Assembly (NCBI GenBank): GCA_947038745.1 | Contig: CAMQXE010000038.1 | Location: forward strand, 1-8,947 | Reading direction: 5' to 3' | DNA: 8,947 nucleotides | Origin: an uncultured Propionibacteriaceae bacterium | Lineage (GTDB): Bacteria > Actinomycetota > Actinomycetes > Propionibacteriales > Propionibacteriaceae | Shown here: in pieces, positions 700 through 8,932 of the stretch | Position numbering within the stretch: the first letter of the stretch is position 1 | Layout: every line of letters starts with the position of its first letter | Made by a program: the position numbers and the translations under genes | The notes under the pieces: model-generated | Databases searched by the model: none | Told to the model about the DNA's origin: nothing | Seen by the model: only the letters and a program-made list of their open reading frames with translations

Positions 700-1350
700 C
701 TAAGCGGCGAGTAAGTCGGAGCGGTGCGTAGCTAGTCTGCGCACCGCTCTACTGCATGTTTGGCGTAAAGCCGCTTCGCTCATGTGGTGACGTCGTGGTG
801 CTACATCGACGCGGGAGCTGGCGTCGATGTAAATCTCTTGAAGGAGATCACGAGTGTGTGTTGAAACAATGCCAAGCTCGCCGGCACGGTCAATAATGTC
901 GCTGGCACAAGGATCAGAAGAAGGGCGGAGCTCGGAGGCTTCGATGAACTTTGCGCGTTCAGCAAAGACAATTTTGCGAGTATCAAGTGCAAGGTTTGCT
1001 GCCACTTTGTGGCAACGGTGGTGAGGATAATTCTTGACCGTGATCCAAAAAGCGGCAACATAATCGTCGATGCAGGCGCAAGGATCAGCAAGAGCTAGGT
1101 TGCAGAGCTTGGGAAGGAATGCTTGAACGATGATCTGCCCAGCTAGCTGATCCTGATCTACTTTTTGGAGTAGAGCGCTTAGCAGGGGGTCGGGATTGGT
1201 GCTTATGTGGGCAAGCACGGCACCAGCAGTGGGAGCCCCATTGAATGGGGGTTCTGGCCAATCGACCGGAGTCTTGGCAAGAATGGTCCATTCGGCTCGA
1301 AGCTTTGTAATGATCGTCATGGTTCGAGCTTGCAGCATCAGTGTTGTCAC
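700..1350 (-). CDS. Small sigma-70-like (degenerate ECF-like) putative DNA-binding protein
   Basis: The protein is 216 aa from the GTG at 1350. An ATG at 1320 (MTIITKLRAEW...) would give 206 aa and is an equally credible start, since neither has a clear Shine-Dalgarno. Residues about 68-126 resemble a sigma region 2 fold: LAGQIIVQAFLPKL, then DDYVAAFWITVKNYP, then VAANLALDTRK, which recalls the WxxxIAxNxxxDxxR pattern of ECF sigma factors. Residues about 165-207 resemble a region 4 helix-turn-helix: TRDLLQEIYIDASSRVDVA, then MSEAALRQTCSRAVRRLA. Homology to true sigma factors is my inference from these patterns; it could instead be an uncharacterised actinobacterial regulator. Two 22-bp palindromes lie just upstream of its start, which suggests regulated or self-regulated expression. 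It is not part of the tad operon, whose 3' end lies 240 bp away on the same strand. Confidence 0.6.
   Translation of the reverse strand: MTTLMLQARTMTIITKLRAEWTILAKTPVDWPEPPFNGAPTAGAVLAHISTNPDPLLSALLQKVDQDQLAGQIIVQAFLPKLCNLALADPCACIDDYVAAFWITVKNYPHHRCHKVAANLALDTRKIVFAERAKFIEASELRPSSDPCASDIIDRAGELGIVSTHTRDLLQEIYIDASSRVDVAPRRHHMSEAALRQTCSRAVRRLATHRSDLLAA
718..750. terminator. Strong hairpin at the convergent gene ends, possible bidirectional terminator
   Basis: An inverted repeat pairs GAGCGGTGCG (719-728) with CGCACCGCTC (740-749). It extends inward by a T-G wobble, A-T and G-C to leave a 5-base loop (732-736). The resulting stem is about 13 bp and GC-rich. It starts about 21 bases after the permease stop and lies inside the last codons of the opposing gene. 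No T-tract follows on either strand, so if it terminates transcription it does so without the classical U-run, as is common in actinobacteria. Terminator function is inferred from position and stability only. Confidence 0.5.
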
Positions 1351-1365
1351 AGGTGTTGTCCGAGA

Positions 1366-1371
1366 ATCTTA
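1366..1371 (-). promoter_or_regulatory. Possible -10 element for the sigma-like gene
   Basis: TAAGAT on the minus strand fits the actinobacterial TANNNT pattern. It would place transcription start near 1359, giving a leader of about 10 nt to the GTG at 1350 or about 40 nt to the ATG at 1320. It sits just downstream of the first palindrome (1376-1397), where a bound repressor would block RNA polymerase. No convincing -35 is visible, so this is tentative. Confidence 0.3.
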
Positions 1372-1375
1372 AGTT

Positions 1376-1397
1376 GTGTCCATAAAAATCGGGACAC
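1376..1397. promoter_or_regulatory. Operator-like palindrome, copy 1
   Basis: A 22-bp site of form GTGTCC-N10-GGACAC with perfect 6-bp arms and an AT-rich centre. It shares TGTCCATAAAA and GGACA, in register, with a second 22-bp site at 1429-1450. Two matching palindromes in a divergent intergenic region are the usual signature of a dimeric repressor or activator. I do not recognise the regulator. Copy 1 lies immediately upstream of the sigma-like gene's putative -10. Confidence 0.7.
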
Positions 1398-1412
1398 GCC
1401 GCCGTGAAATTT

Positions 1413-1441
1413 TTGCTTTTTTCTATTTTTGTCCATAAAAT
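1413..1441 (+). promoter_or_regulatory. Putative promoter of the small RNA
   Basis: TTGCTT (1413-1418) and TAAAAT (1436-1441) are separated by 17 bp inside a very AT-rich stretch (1408-1442). The -10 hexamer matches the TATAAT consensus at 5 of 6 positions; the -35 matches only TTG. Predicted transcription start is near 1448. The -10 lies inside the second palindrome, so binding there should repress this promoter. This is inferred from the sequence alone. Confidence 0.45.
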
Positions 1442-1450
1442 AATGGACAA
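1429..1450. promoter_or_regulatory. Operator-like palindrome, copy 2
   Basis: Perfect 8-bp arms TTGTCCAT and ATGGACAA flank a 6-bp AT spacer. It is the same length as copy 1 (1376-1397) and identical at positions 2-12 and 17-21. The start-to-start distance is 53 bp, close to five helical turns, so proteins on both sites would face the same side of the DNA and could interact by looping. It overlaps the putative -10 of the plus-strand small RNA. It is unlikely to be a terminator because no T-run follows it on either strand. Confidence 0.7.
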
Positions 1451-1580
1451 GACGATGTTTCATCGTTACGTCTGCCCCCAGACGGCCCTACGGACGCTTT
1501 GCTGTTTTATTACTCGCGTGGATGACGTGCCCACCCCCCGGCTCGCCCCGGAGTACACAGCAGAGCGTCCGTTTTATTTT
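1448..1580 (+). ncRNA. Putative structured small RNA, 6C-like
   Basis: Three hairpins follow one another. The first is ACGATG-TTT-CATCGT (1452-1466). The second is CGTCTG-CCCC-CAGACG (1469-1484), whose apex is a run of five C. The third is a long hairpin (1490-1572) with a 16-bp stem containing one G-U pair, a shorter inner stem TACTC/GAGTA (1511-1515/1551-1555), and a loop holding six C (1534-1539). TTTTATTTT follows the last stem, as in an intrinsic terminator. The 6C RNA family of Actinobacteria is defined by two hairpins with C-rich loops, the second acting as terminator, so family membership is a reasonable inference. The loop here (51 nt before inner pairing) is larger than I would expect for 6C, and one C-run is five rather than six. 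The alternative is an unrelated structured RNA or an inverted-repeat relic. 6C loops are thought to pair with G-rich ribosome-binding regions. The RNA runs convergently towards the tad operon's 3' end. Confidence 0.5.
1490..1580 (+). terminator. Long stem-loop with T-tract, terminator of the small RNA
   Basis: The arm 1490-1505 (ACGGACGCTTTGCTGT) pairs with 1557-1572, with one G-T wobble. On the plus strand the stem runs directly into TTTTATTTT (1572-1580), the form of a Rho-independent terminator with a large apical domain. On the minus strand it begins about 17 nt after the stop codon of the last tad-operon gene but has no T-run there. It could still block tad transcription as a bare hairpin. 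Confidence 0.55.
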
Positions 1581-1589
1581 GAGCAGGGA

Positions 1590-4130
1590 CTAACCGCTGA
1601 GCTCAAGGGAACGGGCGCGAGGCCGATGCTCTAGTAGTAGCTGTACGGCGGTGACCGTATCGTCAGCAAGATCAACACCAAGTAGTGCTGCGTGTTTGGT
1701 CAGGCGCAAGACTAATCGCTCAACCTCAGCGAAGTTACCCACCCGTTGCTCGCCCTGGGCGCGAAGCAAAACCAGGCGCTCATCTTCAGGAGCAGCAACC
1801 AAACCACGCGCAGTAGCCCAGCGCACAAGATCGACATCGCCTGCAGCTAAGGCTAATTGCGCAAGGTGGGCGGCAGCATCACGGATCGCTGCGACCATAT
1901 CGGAGCGTAATTCCTCAGCCCAGAACCATTGAGTTGGTGCGGCATCGGCCAATGGGCACCCGCGAACCAGCTCTAGAGCATCAACAAGGACCTCAGGACT
2001 GACTCGATTTACTCCGGGCTTAATCATCCAGCAGAACCGCTGCCAGTCTGATGTCACGGTCGGCGCCAGCGTAATTTTGCCCGAATAAGCCTCTGGAAGA
2101 TATGGACCTTCGTCAGCATCGTTGCCCAACCAAGCCCGTAATCGTGACATATTTGAGCGGCGGGTACTCTCGGCGACGAAGAGCGCAGTTGTCATTTGAG
2201 TTGCTGTTCCGCCTGGGTGATCTAGCAGCCAGGCGGCATATTCGATGCACTGTTTCTCTGCTCGTGGAGGAGGCTGCCCCTGCGCGCCAATCAAGTCGAT
2301 AGGGCCTAGGAGGCGAACTTGCGGGTGAAAAACCTGTGGGGGAGCGGTCACAACAGACTCCTTCAACACGCGACCGGGCAATAGCGGCGAGCTAAGCCGC
2401 GGAGTGAGATAGGCCAGACCGGCGACGTCTCCGTCCCACCACCAGGCGGGGGTTGTCGTCGTAGCTGATGCGTTATCGCAAAGTTCAATCAATGCTTCGC
2501 GTTCAGCGCAGTTAAGTACCGCTGCATTGCAGTCGAAAGCTTCAGCACCAAAGAGAAGGCAGTGGCGGGTAAGTGATGGCGTATGTGCAGGCAATAGTGG
2601 TCCAACAACTACTGCATTCACGCGGCGTAGCTGCTCGTACTCGGCCAAAGTAGGGGTTTCATCTAGGAATACCAGTCGAGGGGCATGCTCTTCGGCGGCA
2701 TCGGGGTTTAGGCGTTGCTCGCGATCGAAAGATATTGGTTTCCAGCAATTTCTCGTCAATACTTCATCGATTTGCCGCACGTCAAGACCTAGAGCGTGGG
2801 CTAACGGAAGAAGTGACTTGCTCGTTACAAGCGCAAGTACCCCGTGGTCGCTCATAGCCAAGGAACTCAGCAGCGCAGCGCAGATATCGATATGGTCGGC
2901 AGGTAATGACAGCGCCCCTAGCTGGGCGAGATCAACAAAGAGCCCATCGCCGTTATCTGCTCCAATGCAGACCAACGCTGGCCAGGGCGATAGCGCATTG
3001 CTTGCCGGTGGAGTAAGCATAGATAGGTTGGTACGAGCGATACTCCAGCAAGATTCTTGCGCTAGAAATCCTGTAGGTGCTGGGCCGGGGTTACAGCGGA
3101 ACTGTAGCTCAATCACATCTGCGCGGACTCTGGCGAGCAGAAGTTCAGGTAGTGCTTGTTTACGCAGGCTAGTTCCCAAAGAACGCAAGACATAGTCAAG
3201 ATCAGTAGTGGTGTAAGGCTCTTGCGTGGCATGTAAAGAATCCCGTAGCCGCCTTGCCGCTGCAGCTGGCTCTAGGTAGCGTCGTCCCAATGGGCGTACC
3301 GCATCTCGACGTCTACGGGTTCCACCCAAAGCGGTAAGTACTAAACCAGCCGTTGATGCACCCAATGCGGTAAGCCCAGAGACAGGGTCTACAGCAGAAG
3401 TAGCGGCTAGAACAGCTTGTGGTTGAGTGGCTGTGGAGCTGGGTTCCAGCGTAGCGGTGGTGTTCAGATCTTGCTCAGCAGATTTGGCAATGCCGGCGCC
3501 GATCTGAATTTGTGCAGTAGGCGCAGGCGATGGTTCAGCTAGCCCGGGCAGGATTAACGACCAGCCCGGCTCAATGTGATGGGGGTCAGTGATGCAAGGG
3601 TTTGCTTCAGCGATACTGCGCCATCGGAATCCGTCACCGTAGGTATTTTCAGCGATGGTCCAAAGATCGTCTCCTGGGGCAACGAGATGAGTACGCCACT
3701 GTGATTCAGTAGTAGCCGCTGGTAGAGGAATAGCTGGAGCAGTTTGGTCTGAAACGATTTGTTGAGCCAAGATTGGGGCCGCAGGTAGCGGCTCGGCTGC
3801 AGCATGCAAGCGTGGTCCGATGAGGATAACCGATGCCACCAGCGCGGCAGTTGCTACCTGAAGCCAGCGTAAACCCGGAAGGTGAGGCAGACGTAAGGAC
3901 GTAAGTCGTGAGCTAATGTCGAGGAGTAATGCCACGATGAAGCTGGCCCAAGCCAGCCAACCTATGATCGTGACAGCGCTGAGGAGCAAAGCGCCATCGT
4001 CGGGGCGTAACAATGCGGATGGAGTAAAAACTGTCCAGTTCAGTTGCCCCCAGAGCACCAATGTCGCGGGGGCTCCTAGCGTCAGTAGAAGTAAGAAGAT
4101 GGCGGCGAAACCGCCCCGAAGGTAGCGCAT
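1590..4130 (-). CDS. Membrane LysM protein with C-terminal winged-helix/BTAD module, tad-associated
   Basis: The protein has 846 aa. Hydrophobic segments lie at about 8-29, 47-71, 89-106 and 247-268. The RRRR and RR clusters after the fourth segment (272-284) point to the cytoplasm. A LysM domain (about 147-196: HLVAPGDDLWTIAENTYGDG...PGWSLILPG) lies between segments 3 and 4, which places it outside, where LysM binds peptidoglycan. Residues about 605-690 look like a winged helix (VRLLGPIDLIGA...STRRSNMSRLRAWLG). Residues about 693-835 match the helical bacterial transcriptional activator domain (BTAD) of SARP-type regulators. The region 300-600 is unassigned. The start is an ATG overlapping the preceding TGA (TGATG), with AGAGGGG just upstream, so the gene is coupled to the TadE-like gene. 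Related LysM/BTAD proteins occur at actinobacterial tad loci. A role in coupling wall state to pilus assembly or transcription is inference. Confidence 0.85.
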   Translation of the reverse strand: MRYLRGGFAAIFLLLLTLGAPATLVLWGQLNWTVFTPSALLRPDDGALLLSAVTIIGWLAWASFIVALLLDISSRLTSLRLPHLPGLRWLQVATAALVASVILIGPRLHAAAEPLPAAPILAQQIVSDQTAPAIPLPAATTESQWRTHLVAPGDDLWTIAENTYGDGFRWRSIAEANPCITDPHHIEPGWSLILPGLAEPSPAPTAQIQIGAGIAKSAEQDLNTTATLEPSSTATQPQAVLAATSAVDPVSGLTALGASTAGLVLTALGGTRRRRDAVRPLGRRYLEPAAAARRLRDSLHATQEPYTTTDLDYVLRSLGTSLRKQALPELLLARVRADVIELQFRCNPGPAPTGFLAQESCWSIARTNLSMLTPPASNALSPWPALVCIGADNGDGLFVDLAQLGALSLPADHIDICAALLSSLAMSDHGVLALVTSKSLLPLAHALGLDVRQIDEVLTRNCWKPISFDREQRLNPDAAEEHAPRLVFLDETPTLAEYEQLRRVNAVVVGPLLPAHTPSLTRHCLLFGAEAFDCNAAVLNCAEREALIELCDNASATTTTPAWWWDGDVAGLAYLTPRLSSPLLPGRVLKESVVTAPPQVFHPQVRLLGPIDLIGAQGQPPPRAEKQCIEYAAWLLDHPGGTATQMTTALFVAESTRRSNMSRLRAWLGNDADEGPYLPEAYSGKITLAPTVTSDWQRFCWMIKPGVNRVSPEVLVDALELVRGCPLADAAPTQWFWAEELRSDMVAAIRDAAAHLAQLALAAGDVDLVRWATARGLVAAPEDERLVLLRAQGEQRVGNFAEVERLVLRLTKHAALLGVDLADDTVTAVQLLLEHRPRARSLELSG

Positions 4131-4546
4131 CAGCCCCTCTTTCGGTAGGTATCGATAGCAGCAGTACCGCGTGATGTGACAGTGATATGTCCGGGAACAC
4201 CTGGCAAAACGAGATCGCTAAGTGAAACGGTGCAGGTAATGGTTACGCTCACTTCTCCAGTGCTTCCAGCAGAGCGAGCAAGCGCAACGGCATCGATATC
4301 GATTCGAGAGTCGAGGCACGCCAAATCAGCCAAGCCAGTTTGAGCTAGACGCGATCCTCGCCGCTGTCCTTCTGCGGGGCTACGCTCCAGTGCTACGGCA
4401 CGGGCAGCATCTTGGGCGGTGGATTCGATCCCAGAGCGGGCCCAGGCCAGCCGCCCACCGAGTACCGCCACCATCGCCATCAGGACAAAGAGCGGAACCA
4501 AAAGTACTGCTTCTAGACAGGCAGCGCCTTGCTCCTCGCGCTTCAT
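4130..4546 (-). CDS. TadE-like minor pseudopilin (second of two)
   Basis: A 138-aa protein with a prepilin-like N-terminus: KREEQG, then AACLEAVLLVPLFVLMAMVAVLGG. Glycine 7 is followed by a glutamate at +5 and a hydrophobic helix with proline at +11, the usual TadE pattern (GxxxxExxxxxP). The rest is a small extracytoplasmic domain with two cysteines (about 77 and 104) that could pair. TadE-type proteins are processed minor pilins needed for Flp pilus assembly. The ATG overlaps the upstream stop as ATGA, and the gene's own stop overlaps the LysM-BTAD start. Which of the two small proteins corresponds to TadE and which to TadF cannot be decided from sequence alone. Confidence 0.82.
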   Translation of the reverse strand: MKREEQGAACLEAVLLVPLFVLMAMVAVLGGRLAWARSGIESTAQDAARAVALERSPAEGQRRGSRLAQTGLADLACLDSRIDIDAVALARSAGSTGEVSVTITCTVSLSDLVLPGVPGHITVTSRGTAAIDTYRKRG

Positions 4547-4899
4547 TGGGGCTCCATCGCGACGATGGCTGTGGCCTTGACTGGGAACTGGATTAGGGTG
4601 CTGAAACGTGGAGCTATCGCATGGACCGTGACGCTTAGATCAGGGCCTTGCTGTTGCAGCGTGATACGGACATCGTGAAGGTCTGCGCTGTCTGCGACCC
4701 GCTGCCCGGCATGCCGCGCTTCAGCCTCGCTACGTCCAACAGCTCGCACTTGGGCTACCGCAGTTGCAGCTTCGCGTGCCCCAGTGCGGGCCTGCGCATG
4801 TAGCCCCACACTGATTGCACCGAGTAGCACCGTAATGATCAAAGGTAAGAGCAATGCGATGTGTAGCGATTCTGACAGACCAGCTTCATCTCTAGTCAT
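4543..4899 (-). CDS. TadE-like minor pseudopilin (first of two), atypical cleavage motif
   Basis: A 118-aa protein: a short charged leader (MTRDEAG), a hydrophobic helix (LSESLHIALLLPLIITVLLGAISVG), then an extracytoplasmic tail beginning LHAQARTGAREAATAVAQVRAVG. The A-rich helix after the membrane segment is typical of TadE/TadF. The cleavage region is unusual: proline is at +12 from the glycine rather than +11. The residue in the place of the conserved glutamate is histidine, while a glutamate occurs at +3. The ATG overlaps the pilin stop as ATGA. Its own ribosome-binding site is weak, so it probably depends on translation of the pilin. Confidence 0.8.
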   Translation of the reverse strand: MTRDEAGLSESLHIALLLPLIITVLLGAISVGLHAQARTGAREAATAVAQVRAVGRSEAEARHAGQRVADSADLHDVRITLQQQGPDLSVTVHAIAPRFSTLIQFPVKATAIVAMEPQ

Positions 4900-5069
4900 G
4901 CCGGCATATGCCCTTCAACATATTTCTTCACAGCAAGGATGACAGCACCAGCGATCGAAGCCGCACCTACAAGAAGCACAGCGTTTTCCGTCGATTGCGA
5001 TAAGCCATTCTCATCGCGAGGAACCGGAGCAGTAAGGGAAAACCAAAAACCAATAATGCGGTACACCAT
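4896..5069 (-). CDS. Flp-like pilin precursor, 57 aa
   Basis: This small gene begins at an ATG with AAAGGA five bases upstream and ends with a TGA overlapping the next gene's ATG. It encodes a leader MVYRIIGFWFSLTAPVPRDENG, then LSQSTENAVLLVGAASIAGA and VILAVKKYVEGHMPA. The pattern of polar leader, glycine, short polar stretch with a glutamate, one hydrophobic helix and a very short charged tail is that of actinobacterial Flp/DUF4244-type pilins. So is its place between tadC and the tadE genes. If cleaved after glycine 22, the mature peptide is 35 aa. The conserved glutamate falls at +6 instead of +5, and asparagine replaces the usual tyrosine next to it. The leader is unusually hydrophobic for a prepilin (IIGFWFSL). 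It is probably the main filament subunit, assembled by TadA/B/C after cleavage by a prepilin peptidase encoded elsewhere. Confidence 0.8.
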   Translation of the reverse strand: MVYRIIGFWFSLTAPVPRDENGLSQSTENAVLLVGAASIAGAVILAVKKYVEGHMPA

Positions 5070-5074
5070 GAGAG

Positions 5075-5080
5075 TCCTTT
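5075..5080 (-). promoter_or_regulatory. Ribosome-binding site of the pilin gene
   Basis: AAAGGA lies 5 bases before the pilin ATG at 5069. The pilin is the only operon gene in the window separated from its predecessor by a gap (48 bp), so this site supports its separate, probably stronger, translation and fixes the start codon. Confidence 0.7.
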
Positions 5081-5117
5081 CGAGACAGGTTTGTAGGGGG
5101 TGGGATAAGAGAGAGGG

Positions 5118-5954
5118 TTAGCTAAGGAGCCGAAGGATTGGCGGAACGATGAAGATCGCAGCAAAGACAAAAGTGGGTACTGCCATTGCGAAAGTCATGG
5201 ACTCGCTAATCGCATGAGCTTGCAGTGTTAGCCGGGACAAGTGCGCATGACGAAGCTCAGCGACTCGTGCTCGTAATGTTCCAGACAAAGCTGCGCCGGT
5301 GTCATCAAGACGCATGATGTCGGCGATATCGGCTAGCTCAGGAAGATCTAGCTCAGTTGCCAGTGCAGCCAGCCCAACCCAGGGCGGGCGTTGTTCTAGC
5401 TGAGCGCGATGCAAAGCTGTCCGGATCTGGCAAAATATCGGAGCTTGAGAGATCGAAGCCGCAGTTGCTAGAGCCTGGCTTGCGGACTGGTTGCCAAGCC
5501 GTTCAAGGGTGACAAGATCAAGGTAAGTCAGTAAAGCTTCGCTGGCATCGTCATGACGTTGAGCGCGGGTAGCTATAAGGCGATAGTCCGGCCAAAAGAA
5601 TCCTGCTACGCAGCCAAATAGCCCGGCTGCCACAGGCACTAGCGGGGACCAACCAAATCCGACTGCGCACAGTGAACACAAAATTGACGGGGCGAGTAGC
5701 CCTGCGAGCGCCATCAAGACTTTCTCTCGTAGATGAGCTCCTAGAGACAAACCAGCAAGAGTAATTTCACGACGAAGTGCAGGAAGATAGGTGAATTTTT
5801 CCCAGGAAGCAGACTCGCTGCTTGTAGAGCTATCGAGGCGATTTAGTGAAGCGGATAAATCAGGTACTGGGTGCTGTACCCATGCAATTACTGCCATCGA
5901 TCCACCAACCAAACAGCCACCAGCAACGGCTGCCCACAGTGTCTGGCTAATCAC
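5118..5954 (-). CDS. tadC: TadC-like inner-membrane platform protein (type II secretion F domain)
   Basis: A 278-aa protein with membrane segments at about 5-25, 78-120 (two adjacent) and 255-276. Between them is a helical cytoplasmic T2SSF (GspF) domain at about 135-245, containing LLTYLDLVTLERLGNQSASQAL and LPELADIADIMRLDDTGAALSGTLRARVAELR. The size and single F domain fit TadC, the partner of TadB in the platform that contacts the TadA ATPase. The GTG start at 5954 is chosen because AGGAGG lies 5 bases upstream. It overlaps the tadB stop by 8 bases. Confidence 0.88.
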   Translation of the reverse strand: MISQTLWAAVAGGCLVGGSMAVIAWVQHPVPDLSASLNRLDSSTSSESASWEKFTYLPALRREITLAGLSLGAHLREKVLMALAGLLAPSILCSLCAVGFGWSPLVPVAAGLFGCVAGFFWPDYRLIATRAQRHDDASEALLTYLDLVTLERLGNQSASQALATAASISQAPIFCQIRTALHRAQLEQRPPWVGLAALATELDLPELADIADIMRLDDTGAALSGTLRARVAELRHAHLSRLTLQAHAISESMTFAMAVPTFVFAAIFIVPPILRLLS

Positions 5955-6798
5955 CGGTTCCTCCTTGGAGCAAGATCCTTTGACGAGTGCGCGGGATAGT
6001 TATTCGGCGAAGCCAGATCAAGGCAAGGACATAAATAGTGAGGAGCGCAGCGAGTATGAGCTGCCCAAACCCTGTGCGATAAGCCGCGAAATATTCGCGG
6101 CCAATCGTCATCCCGATGCCAAGGACCAGTAGTGACAACCACGTCACCTGACGCACCACGACGCGAGGTTTTTCGCGTTCAGCTTCGATGGCCCGCCATG
6201 ATTTCAACTGCTCTTGTACGGAATCGGCCAGTGCGATGAGAGAAGTAGAAAGCCCAGTTCCGCCACGCTCGTGAGCGAGGATTAGCGAGGCCAGAACTGT
6301 ATCGACGTGGGGGCTAGCGAGCTGATCTGACATAGCAAATAGTGCGTCACGTACACTCCAGCGCTCGTCAATACGTTGAACCGCAAGCGTCACCGCCGGT
6401 GCTAGCAGAGTGGGTGCAGTTCGCTGCGAGACGCGGATAGCTTCCGCGACACTGCGCCCGGCTGAAACTGTCGCGGCTAGAGAACGAACCCAACGATCCA
6501 GATTCTCTAGCACGGCGATTTCGGAGTTAGGTGGTGTAGCTAGAAGCCAGCGGCCAACTGCGCAAAGTGCAGGTACTGCAATGAGTGCAACGGGAAGAGC
6601 GGTAAGCCACCAGGACACTACCCCAGCAATGACACTGAGCCCAGTCCACAGATCAATATGGGACCGCCACCGCAACGGATACCAGCCTGCTAATCGAGCA
6701 ACCTGTGGAGCCTTGTTTACGGGCCGGGCCCCGACCATGACAGCAACGACACCGCACAGTATGAGGGCAGTACACAGCCCAGCGGCTAGGGCTTTCAT
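5947..6798 (-). CDS. tadB: TadB-like inner-membrane platform protein (type II secretion F domain)
   Basis: A 283-aa protein. Hydrophobic segments lie at about 3-24, 50-85 (two adjacent), 216-233 and 246-263. The T2SSF domain spans about 97-215, with LDRWVRSLAATVSAGRSVAEAI and LILAHERGGTGLSTSLIALADSVQEQL, the glycine-containing turn typical of GspF/TadB. TadB and TadC together form the membrane base of the pilus machine, driven by TadA. The ATG overlaps the tadA stop as ATGA. The stretch EAEREKPRVVVRQ just before the fourth hydrophobic segment is a common feature of the family. Confidence 0.9.
   Translation of the reverse strand: MKALAAGLCTALILCGVVAVMVGARPVNKAPQVARLAGWYPLRWRSHIDLWTGLSVIAGVVSWWLTALPVALIAVPALCAVGRWLLATPPNSEIAVLENLDRWVRSLAATVSAGRSVAEAIRVSQRTAPTLLAPAVTLAVQRIDERWSVRDALFAMSDQLASPHVDTVLASLILAHERGGTGLSTSLIALADSVQEQLKSWRAIEAEREKPRVVVRQVTWLSLLVLGIGMTIGREYFAAYRTGFGQLILAALLTIYVLALIWLRRITIPRTRQRILLQGGTGD
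5960..5965 (-). promoter_or_regulatory. Strong Shine-Dalgarno of tadC
   Basis: A perfect AGGAGG lies 5 bases before the GTG at 5954 and inside the 3' end of tadB. It decides the tadC start and compensates for the weaker GTG initiation codon. Confidence 0.75.
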
Positions 6799-8186
6799 CG
6801 CTTTTCCCAGTCTGGAGCAAAGGGAGCCAGATCTTCTTTCAACGTTCCAGCTAGCGTCAGCGGAAGGCTGGGATCAGTGGCCCGATAAACAGGGTGCGTG
6901 ACGGGCCGGCCATTTTCTATGCCACCAGTTAATTGCAATACCTCGGTAACGTGACGACGGCGCCCACCGCCGCGCCAGGTGTCGTCATCAAGGCGGATAT
7001 GCACGATGAAGCCGATATGGAAAGCAATCTGGCGGTAAGCCTCATCGATAGTAAGTACCCGGCCCTGTGCGATGCGAGCGGCTAGTCGATCAATGGTGGA
7101 TAACGCTGAATGGGCGTGCGTCGTACCTAAACTTCCGGCTCCAGATTGCATTGCTTCGATGAGGGCACCAGCTTCACCGCCGCGCACCTCACCAACGATG
7201 ATCCGAGTGAGATTTTGGCGCAGCGCCTCAGGAATAAGATCAGCAACGCTAACCTCGCCGATGGGGCGACCATCGAGGCGTTCACCCATGCCAATGCGTG
7301 ATTGTAGGGCCACCACATTCTCGCGGCCAGGTTGCAAATGGGTCAGTAATTCATAGTCAGTCTCAACGGTTCCGAAGCGTTCCGTGTGTGGAATGGCGTC
7401 GATCAGAGCGCGCAGCAATGTCGTTTTCCCAGCTCCTTGATCCCCAGCGATCATGACTGATTGCCTGGCGCGGACGGCTGAATGGAGCAGAGCTGCGACA
7501 TCGCGAGGCAACATGTCGCGTTCTACAAGGTCGAGCAAAGTGACATCGATTAACTGGTGTTGCCGAATAGCGATTGAAGGCCGAGCAGCTAGCCCAAAGC
7601 CGATGGCATGGAGCCGGAACCGTGAACCAAGCGCGAGTGTCATCGTTGGATGAGCGTCATCAAAAGGCCGTGCTGGGGTGGCATTCTCGCCCAGAAAACG
7701 GATTGCCTCGATTAATTCTTCATCTGAATCTGCGACAGGTGCAAGGTGATGTCGTTGGCCATCGCCATCTTGTACGCAGACGTGGTCAAAGCCATTGATC
7801 TCGATATTTTCTGCGTTGGGGAGATCGAAAAGGGGTTGGAGCCGTCCATAGCCAAAGATCGCATTATCGACGGCTTGCACATAGGCTGCTTCAAGATCGA
7901 GAGGCCAGGCGCTTTTCCCACTTTGGCTTAAGTGTTCAGCATGATGGCGAACCATACGTCGCACGACGCTACGCCCGATGAGTTGTCGATCAGTTGCAGG
8001 TAATGGTCGGTGATGTTCACCCTCCCACGTAGCAACGACAGCCGAGATTTCTTCCGCAACAGCATGACGCAAAGTAACAACGACCTGCCAATCCAAGGCG
8101 GGCTTGGCGAATTGAGCGGTTTGCTCAGGGGTAAGCACGAATGGTTCTATCCCGTGTCGTGGGCTGAGATGTGCGGAGTTTGTCAT
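6795..8186 (-). CDS. tadA: TadA/CpaF-type secretion ATPase
   Basis: The protein has 463 aa from the ATG at 8186 (MTNSAHLSPRHG...). This start overlaps the tadZ stop as ATGA, like most other junctions in the operon. An in-frame start at 8264 would add 26 residues that lie wholly inside tadZ, and I consider it unlikely. The N-terminal part (about 95-210) is the CpaF-type domain (FGYGRLQPLFDLPNAENIEI...FRLHAI). The ATPase core has a Walker A GDQGAGKT (248-255), acidic residues in TVETDYELL (273-281), a Walker B RIIVGEVRG (328-336) and a His box GTTHAHS (354-360). This hexameric cytoplasmic motor powers Flp pilus extension. All catalytic motifs are intact, so it should be active. Confidence 0.93.
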   Translation of the reverse strand: MTNSAHLSPRHGIEPFVLTPEQTAQFAKPALDWQVVVTLRHAVAEEISAVVATWEGEHHRPLPATDRQLIGRSVVRRMVRHHAEHLSQSGKSAWPLDLEAAYVQAVDNAIFGYGRLQPLFDLPNAENIEINGFDHVCVQDGDGQRHHLAPVADSDEELIEAIRFLGENATPARPFDDAHPTMTLALGSRFRLHAIGFGLAARPSIAIRQHQLIDVTLLDLVERDMLPRDVAALLHSAVRARQSVMIAGDQGAGKTTLLRALIDAIPHTERFGTVETDYELLTHLQPGRENVVALQSRIGMGERLDGRPIGEVSVADLIPEALRQNLTRIIVGEVRGGEAGALIEAMQSGAGSLGTTHAHSALSTIDRLAARIAQGRVLTIDEAYRQIAFHIGFIVHIRLDDDTWRGGGRRRHVTEVLQLTGGIENGRPVTHPVYRATDPSLPLTLAGTLKEDLAPFAPDWEKR

Positions 8187-8932
8187 GATGGCAGCCGAAC
8201 TAGCTGTTTCTGTATGCCAAGACGAGCAGCCACGTTTTGTGCCCCATCTTGGTAGCTTTTCCATAGCGCCGACTTATCGCAGCGCCGCTGTGGCTCTCCG
8301 TCAGAGAAGAATCGTGCCGTCTCAGTGTCATAGGGGACGGTTAGCCATATGTCGTGGGCTAAGGCCGCAGCGATTTCTGTGCCGGAATAGGGCATTCCTG
8401 CGCCGACAAGGAGCAATCCAGATTCCCGGGCATCGGCCAGCAGCGGTGCGGCTAGTCGTGCAGCCGCGATTGAACGTAGCGAGGAGCGCAAAACCAACAA
8501 AACCACGTCGGCGATATCGAGCAGTTGGCGTGGCAAGCCAGTGCCTAGACGACCAGCGTCGATAATAACGTTATGACCTTGGGTGCTTAGCGTGGCGAGG
8601 GCAGAAGAAAACTCGGGCCAGGTGCGCTCGAAGGCAGTTGCGGCTGCTGGGGTGGCAAACCCTGGAAGAAAGATCCGATCGCCACTGGTGGTGAGAGGTA
8701 TGCCGTGTGCCTGGGGATTATCGCTACAGCGCTCGCGGTGAGCTGCTACCAGCGACACGATGCCTCTACCTTGTGATTCAATGCCGCCCAGATAACCGGC
8801 CAAGACGGCTTGCCCGCCAGAGCGATCAACGTCAATTAAGAATGCTGGTTCAGGCCAGGCCAGAGTCAGGCCGAGTGCTGTTGAAGTAACTCCAGGTGCT
8901 CCTGTTGCTGAGCAGAGAATGATGATGCTCAT
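8183..8932 (-). CDS. tadZ: TadZ/CpaE-like MinD-family localisation protein
   Basis: A 249-aa protein with a P-loop NTPase fold of the MinD/ParA type. The first strand and loop are MSIIILCSATGAPGVTSTAL, then FLIDVDRSGG (31-40), NVIIDAGRLGTGLPRQL (121-135, switch II/Walker B-like), VVLLVLRSSL, and a late GLLLVGAGM strand. The deviant Walker A (TGAPGVTST, 10-18) lacks both the signature and the catalytic lysine of KGGxGKTT. TadZ proteins are known for atypical Walker A motifs and act as polar landmarks for the Tad machine. Actinobacterial versions are often annotated as septum-site-determining proteins. No separate receiver domain is present. The start ATG overlaps the TGA of an upstream frame. 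Confidence 0.85.
   Translation of the reverse strand: MSIIILCSATGAPGVTSTALGLTLAWPEPAFLIDVDRSGGQAVLAGYLGGIESQGRGIVSLVAAHRERCSDNPQAHGIPLTTSGDRIFLPGFATPAAATAFERTWPEFSSALATLSTQGHNVIIDAGRLGTGLPRQLLDIADVVLLVLRSSLRSIAAARLAAPLLADARESGLLLVGAGMPYSGTEIAAALAHDIWLTVPYDTETARFFSDGEPQRRCDKSALWKSYQDGAQNVAARLGIQKQLVRLPS

Follow-up and report, generated by a model that had tools for sequence, protein, structure and literature searches.

A folded stretch at positions 1448 to 1580 of an 8,947-nt piece of DNA from an uncultured Propionibacteriaceae bacterium (the whole of which we call the window) is probably a small RNA gene. The reading that we favour, with modest confidence, takes it as a small RNA gene on the plus strand that has its own promoter and intrinsic terminator, diverges from the gene of a sigma-70 region-4-like protein (SIGL), converges with a tad pilus locus, and is a positional counterpart of a conserved RNA that is absent from Rfam.

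Results

Gene organization of the window

The main genes of the tad pilus locus run from 8932 to 1590, all on the minus strand. The block from 4130 to 8932 encodes two TadE-like proteins, one of them just below the Pfam cut-off, a T2SSF-type protein and one more membrane protein, identified by position, a CpaF-type ATPase, and a CpaE/Ssd-like protein that falls below the NCBIfam cut-off. The locus ends with the gene of a LysM-domain protein (1590 to 4130, minus strand; stop codon 1592-1590), which is convergent with the candidate RNA. A gap of 240 nt separates this gene from SIGL (700 to 1320, minus strand; ATG at 1320, reading frame open to 1350), which is divergent from the RNA, and beyond SIGL lies the 3' end of a plus-strand FtsX-type gene. 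An inverted repeat at 719-749 (13 bp, 5-nt gap) is located within the SIGL 3' end, between the convergent FtsX-type gene and SIGL; this part of the window ranks second in structure, and the repeat may be a terminator without a T-tract.

The likeness of SIGL to sigma-70 region 4 is weak and confined to the C-terminal part (SigD region 4, E 0.019), and Sigma70_r4_2 was found in four of eight SIGL members. A SIGL profile matched 130 of the 198 family genomes at E ≤ 0.001, the weakest of these matches probably being other sigma factors. The nearest LysM and SIGL proteins (79% and 81% identity, respectively) both come from a Propionibacteriaceae metagenome-assembled genome. Searched with the whole LysM protein, the 198 family genomes gave 41-42% identity at best, indicating that the lineage of the window is isolated in the available data. 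A search of viral contigs for CpaF found none.

Structure of the candidate RNA

The minimum-free-energy (MFE) fold of the plus strand contains three consecutive hairpins. Hairpin 1 is located at 1451-1467, and hairpin 2 at 1469-1484 has a 6-bp stem and a CCCC loop. Hairpin 3 (1490-1572) is terminator-like; its outer stem of 16 bp (1490-1505/1557-1572) is an inverted repeat with 94% complementarity and 51 nt between the arms, and its inner apical loop, CACCCCCC (1532-1539), is C-rich. The T-tract TTTATTTT (1573-1580, plus strand) follows directly, the last base of the hairpin 3 stem also being a T, and resembles the tail of an intrinsic terminator. It stops 9 nt short of the LysM stop codon, and no recognised plus-strand gene ends there. 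This combination of a GC-rich stem and a T-tract on the coding strand is the end expected of an intrinsically terminated small RNA. Hairpin 3 was absent from a simple terminator scan, which takes loops of 3-8 nt only. The predicted RNA is approximately 130 nt long (1448 to 1580, plus strand), its putative start being placed about 7 nt past the -10-like hexamer and its putative end at the T-tract.

The stretch 1444-1580 on the plus strand had an MFE of -57.2 and a z-score of -6.17, and none of 200 shuffled sequences was as stable. The plus strand was preferred over the minus strand both with 200 shuffles (z -6.17 vs -4.44) and with 40 shuffles (z -6.8 vs -4.6). We scanned both strands of the window in 137-nt segments on a 25-nt grid with 40 shuffles each. 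Among the 708 segments scored, which include the segment at 1444 that was added deliberately to the grid, this plus-strand segment had the lowest z. Among the plain grid segments alone, segment 701 on the minus strand, at the convergent end of the FtsX-type gene and SIGL, ranked first (z -6.5) and segment 1451 on the plus strand second (z -6.2).

The two C-runs, CCCCC at 1475-1479 and CCCCCC at 1534-1539, both face apical loops in the fold, as four C in hairpin 2 and as CACCCCCC in hairpin 3. Two runs of at least five C appeared in 120 of 2000 shuffles of the segment, so that they are marginal and only mildly unusual. The three hairpins, the positions of the C-runs, and the terminal T-tract were thus all as an earlier note on this DNA had described them. 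A mechanical listing of open frames also contains a candidate frame of 76 amino acids with a GTG start (1404-1634, plus strand), which covers the hairpins on the RNA strand and extends beyond the T-tract into the LysM gene.

Promoter-like element, palindromes and repeats

The promoter-like pair reported in the same note, TTGCTT (1413-1418) and TAAAAT (1436-1441) with an N17 spacer, is present on the plus strand but does not stand above chance by itself. The hexamers match the consensus at three and five of six positions, respectively, and the pair was not listed by a stricter promoter scan. Two such promoter-like sites occur in 1351-1600 against 0.72 expected, a number reached by 17% of shuffles. 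TAAAAT precedes hairpin 3 by 54 nt, in agreement with the spacing in relatives; AATAAT (1439-1444), 51 nt from hairpin 3, is an equally good -10 hexamer.

The -10-like hexamer is contained in a perfect palindrome, TTGTCC-N10-GGACAA (1429-1450, no mismatch in the core), which the note had overlooked. At a distance of 53 bp lies a second palindrome, GTGTCC-N10-GGACAC (1376-1397); the core TGTCC-N10-GGACA occurs nowhere else in the window as an exact copy. Both palindromes share a half-site with a repeat array upstream of SIGL. The window copy of this array (1339 to 1381, minus strand) consists of GGACACAAC (from 1381), GGACAACACC (1361-1352), and GACAACACTG (1348-1339).

We compared 71 SIGL upstream regions, comprising two sets of 40 and 30 regions of relatives and the window, with one duplicate dropped. 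GGACAACA was present within 260 nt of SIGL in 51 of the 71 regions (86 copies vs one in control stretches of the same loci), mostly at spacings of 20-21 and 11-12 bp. Tandem GGACAACACC-type repeats of this kind lie directly upstream of SIGL in the window, in locus L041, and in most of loci L085 to L187. SIGL itself is a candidate binding factor for the GGACAACACC-type repeats. Judged by title, none of the papers listed in a literature search for GGACAACACC was on bacterial regulation.

A conserved structured RNA upstream of SIGL in relatives

Searches with the window sequence gave little. DNA similarity to 1360-1600 was not found in plasmids, and no convincing relative was found in the 198 family genomes; 135 of these genomes had DNA matches at E ≤ 1, those listed being 16-46 nt long with a best E of 9e-4, and the matches were taken as noise. 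Model R1, built from the window sequence alone, gave one weak match in 63 loci (L007, E 7.4) and one match in the 198 family genomes (E 0.08), the latter fitting with many broken pairs. In loci anchored on the LysM gene, TGTCC-N10-GGACA occurred in none of those listed, and many had C-loop hairpins with no common form by eye. In one of them (L016), several TTGTCGAAACCCCGGG-type hairpins lie within 700 nt past the LysM stop codon and represent a repeat element of that genome.

Anchoring on SIGL led to a conserved structured RNA. Thirty of the 70 upstream regions of relatives carry, in the orientation divergent from SIGL, a structured RNA that is absent from Rfam. The shared hairpin is GCCCAGGGGG...CCCCCUGGUGCC in 22 regions and a GCCCGGGGGG variant in seven, to which L111 is added; the first-type loci also carry a smaller hairpin and a TACNAT hexamer upstream. 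The family hairpin was not found by pattern in the other 40 regions, among them L041, which was found by model R2 (33.6 bits). When the 71 regions were scanned for folding, several loci were strongly structured on the SIGL-divergent strand, and the window ranked seventh by best z. Eight of the other 11 regions in the top twelve were family members; the remaining three (L184, L092, and L094) were not, and L184 was thus also strongly folded upstream of SIGL.

The structure is supported by covariation. In the terminal hairpin, nine of 14 pairs were changed on both sides (52 aligned sequences, 51 distinct, collected with a regular expression that missed eight loci), and none of 500 shuffles did as well. 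Among 22 aligned sequences, 10 of 20 pairs, including all four in hairpin A, were changed on both sides (0/500 shuffles). Most measures gave 0/500 in the shuffled controls, and slid controls collapsed. With further pair types as the measure, one of 500 shuffles reached the observed value for the 52 sequences, and 459 of 500 did so for the 22 sequences. Scanning 20 SIGL loci with Rfam 15 at E ≤ 1 returned no relevant match, only two microRNA matches far under the cut-off.

Model R3 detected the RNA in 75 of the 198 family genomes, which include those of its training sequences, at one place per genome; three of the 75 also matched on the opposite strand at the same place. In 293 sampled genomes of the order, 38 were positive, all of them from the family set. 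Micropruina glycogenica (L022/G008) is a named carrier. A TTT within 9 nt past the hairpin was present on the RNA strand in 21 of 52 relatives and on the other strand in three of 52, which mildly favours an RNA that is read away from SIGL and ends at the hairpin; the mean T content of these 9 nt differed little (2.96 vs 2.5).

Genomic context of the conserved RNA

We picked by hand the rows that describe the SIGL and LysM context in the 75 genomes. The RNA is divergent from SIGL in at least 38, with a gap of 163-579 nt. It lies on the same strand just downstream of SIGL in at least six others and at 2-3 kb from SIGL in at least four, and in 27 there is no SIGL on the contig of the RNA among the matches listed. 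In 16 of the 75, the RNA is convergent with the tad LysM gene, 1.5-5.1 kb from its matched part; in G064 the two are co-directional, and in several other genomes they are tens of kilobases apart or on different contigs. The SIGL-divergent and tad-convergent settings coincide in the window.

Near the RNA, 24 of 48 loci carry a gene for a protein of approximately 145-160 residues. In 23 of these it converges on the RNA (for example, L192 1054-1497 and L225 683-1174, both plus strand), with a gap of -38 to 111 nt, and in L232 it is co-directional. Two copies of the protein were tested and gave no Pfam match, and in L229 and L231 its coding sequence passes through the RNA hairpin. This convergent gene, which ends at most 111 nt from the hairpin, parallels the LysM gene of the window. 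In at least four loci (L174, L175, L181, and L182), the RNA heads toward the start of a co-directional gene, which in L204, from the same genome as L182, belongs to the LytR-CpsA-Psr (LCP) family. The conserved RNA could be a 5' leader in these loci.

Relationship of the window RNA to the conserved RNA

Neither model recognises the window RNA by sequence. R2 scored 3.0 bits (E 0.45) on the window, and R3 found nothing in 1448-1580 at E ≤ 10; the best R3 match in the window (11.3 bits, E 0.12) was at 1738-1792, inside the LysM gene. The position agrees better. The window RNA diverges from SIGL within a few hundred nucleotides (SIGL ATG at 1320, RNA start at about 1448). In 19 of 22 relatives, the -10-like hexamer precedes the terminal hairpin by 53-60 nt (median 54.5, ties broken towards 56); the window value, taken from the hexamer of the earlier note, is 54 nt, and 68 of 2000 shuffles did as well.

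The window RNA resembles the SIGL-divergent RNA in several ways: both diverge from SIGL, converge with the next gene, have a -10-like hexamer that precedes a long terminal hairpin by about 54 nt, and are single copy. In contrast, its C-rich loops and strong T-tract are not shared by the relatives; under a strict rule, the window was the only one of the 71 SIGL upstream regions with a stem followed by a T-tract. Furthermore, the arms of hairpin 3 are 51 nt apart in the window and 16 columns apart in the alignment of the relatives. As R2 and R3 fail to recognise it, we regard the window RNA as a positional counterpart, diverged or replaced, rather than as a proven member. The suggestion that this could be a new RNA is supported by the fold, the strand, the terminator-like end, and the presence at this place, in many Propionibacteriaceae, of a covarying RNA outside Rfam; the support does not extend to membership of that family by sequence.

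Comparison with 6C RNA

The earlier note had proposed a divergent member of the 6C RNA family. This proposal fails, as the Rfam 6C covariance model (RF01066) gave no match at E ≤ 10 in either the whole window or 1400-1620. Elsewhere the model works: of 296 class genomes, 141 matched at E ≤ 0.001 and 111 exceeded the cut-off. None of the 198 Propionibacteriaceae genomes had a match over the Rfam cut-off, and 14 had sub-threshold matches at E ≤ 0.1; this search scored 22 candidates per genome under strict filters, so that weak members may be lost. Seven Propionibacteriaceae tad loci had no Rfam match at gathering scores.

The Rfam 6C consensus spans 75 positions and comprises two hairpins side by side, with stems of 12 and 13 pairs and six C in each loop. 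The window RNA has instead one short C-loop hairpin (6 bp, four unpaired C) and one long, bulged, C-bearing hairpin, and it lacks two neighbouring stem-loops of 12-13 pairs with about six C each. PMC6582537 presents a manual fold of a mycobacterial 6C with three helices and two C-rich loops, closer to the outline in the earlier note than the two hairpins of Rfam, and gives the position of 6C relative to Ms1 as conserved.

The location of 6C near a tadZ-like gene, as given in the earlier note, was confirmed in L115, the one locus in which we read this context, where the order is Ms1, a HAD-type gene, 6C, and an Ssd/TadZ-like gene (gene names read from the sequence). There, 6C precedes the ssd/tadZ-like gene and occupies the 5' end of tad, whereas the window RNA occupies the 3' end; the tadZ upstream region of this genome falls outside the window. 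6C (mycobacterial B11) and the window RNA are thus alike as small actinobacterial RNAs with C-runs in hairpin loops near tad-type genes, and unlike in the tad end that they occupy and in the long bulged terminal hairpin. Ms1 (RF02566) is likewise an actinobacterial small RNA and shares its neighbourhood with 6C in L115, but it is about 300 nt long and has no match in the window.

Discussion

Several explanations other than a separate plus-strand RNA gene have to be weighed. The hairpins could be the 3' end, a terminator plus stabilising hairpins, of the minus-strand tad messenger. They start 17 nt past the LysM stop codon (1592-1590), the minus strand also folds well (z -4.44, or -4.6 with 40 shuffles), and some GC-rich terminators have no U-tract. 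On the minus strand, however, hairpin 3 has an A-tract before it and AGGGCC after it, with no U-tract; the plus strand is preferred by z, a TTT follows the hairpin of relatives mainly on the RNA strand (21/52 vs 3/52), and the relatives have a second covarying hairpin and a -10-like hexamer upstream on that strand. We therefore consider a tad messenger end unlikely, though it deserves attention. That the structure is incidental, consisting of DNA palindromes for a DNA-binding protein and a chance fold, is in our opinion improbable. Two perfect palindromes do adjoin the fold, and the repeats upstream of SIGL resemble DNA elements, but the fold itself (1451-1572) lies outside the palindromes and has the lowest z of the 708 segments, counting the deliberately added one.

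A divergent 6C RNA can hardly be maintained. Two C-runs in apical loops, the proximity to tad seen for 6C in L115, and the hand-drawn fold with three helices and two C-rich loops in PMC6582537 speak for it. Against these stand the lack of any match at E ≤ 10, which refutes membership by sequence and structure, the location at the opposite end of tad, the different stems, spacing, and loop sequences, and a family in which no genome of 198 exceeds the 6C cut-off. It is, on the other hand, quite possible, if short of probable, that the window RNA is a very diverged true homologue of the SIGL-divergent family, the same gene by descent. It amounts to our favoured explanation in a stronger version, and is not an alternative to it. 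Place, orientation, approximate size, the long terminal hairpin, and the -10 distance all agree with descent; the failure of R2 and R3 to recognise the sequence and the 51 nt between the arms of hairpin 3, compared with 16 alignment columns in relatives, disagree.

Returning to a plus-strand RNA gene as the preferred reading, we infer its transcription, regulator, targets, and function as follows. The RNA and SIGL would be transcribed outward from a common control region. The divergent layout and the shared repeats suggest one regulator for both: a factor binding the GGACAAC repeats would control SIGL and, via the palindrome over the -10 hexamer, the RNA too. The location of this palindrome fits repression or exclusion of RNA polymerase. 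The RNA may work in trans by base pairing between its exposed C-rich loops and G-rich translation starts, and its likely targets would be the tad or SIGL messages. Small RNAs with C-rich loops, such as the Rsa RNAs of Staphylococcus aureus and mycobacterial B11, target Shine-Dalgarno regions. The window RNA has exposed apical C-runs as these do, which suggests pairing with G-rich ribosome-binding sites, the analogy being one of mechanism only. Hairpin 3 may also keep the RNA apart from the converging tad transcription.

For the family as a whole, we tentatively propose a head-to-head module of a small RNA and a sigma-region-4-like gene under a GGACAACACC array, distributed across much of Propionibacteriaceae and partly beside tad. 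The window RNA would be a fast-evolving form of it, in which the sequence has been replaced and the position, promoter spacing, and terminator have been kept.

A doubtful 6C call is replaced by a testable module, in which a conserved structured RNA and a sigma-like gene would share one control region. The conserved RNA is new to Rfam 15 (20 loci scanned) and occurs in a family with 6C above the cut-off in none of 198 genomes. Either tad pili or the sigma-like protein could be under its control, and the named species M. glycogenica, which carries it, opens it to direct testing.
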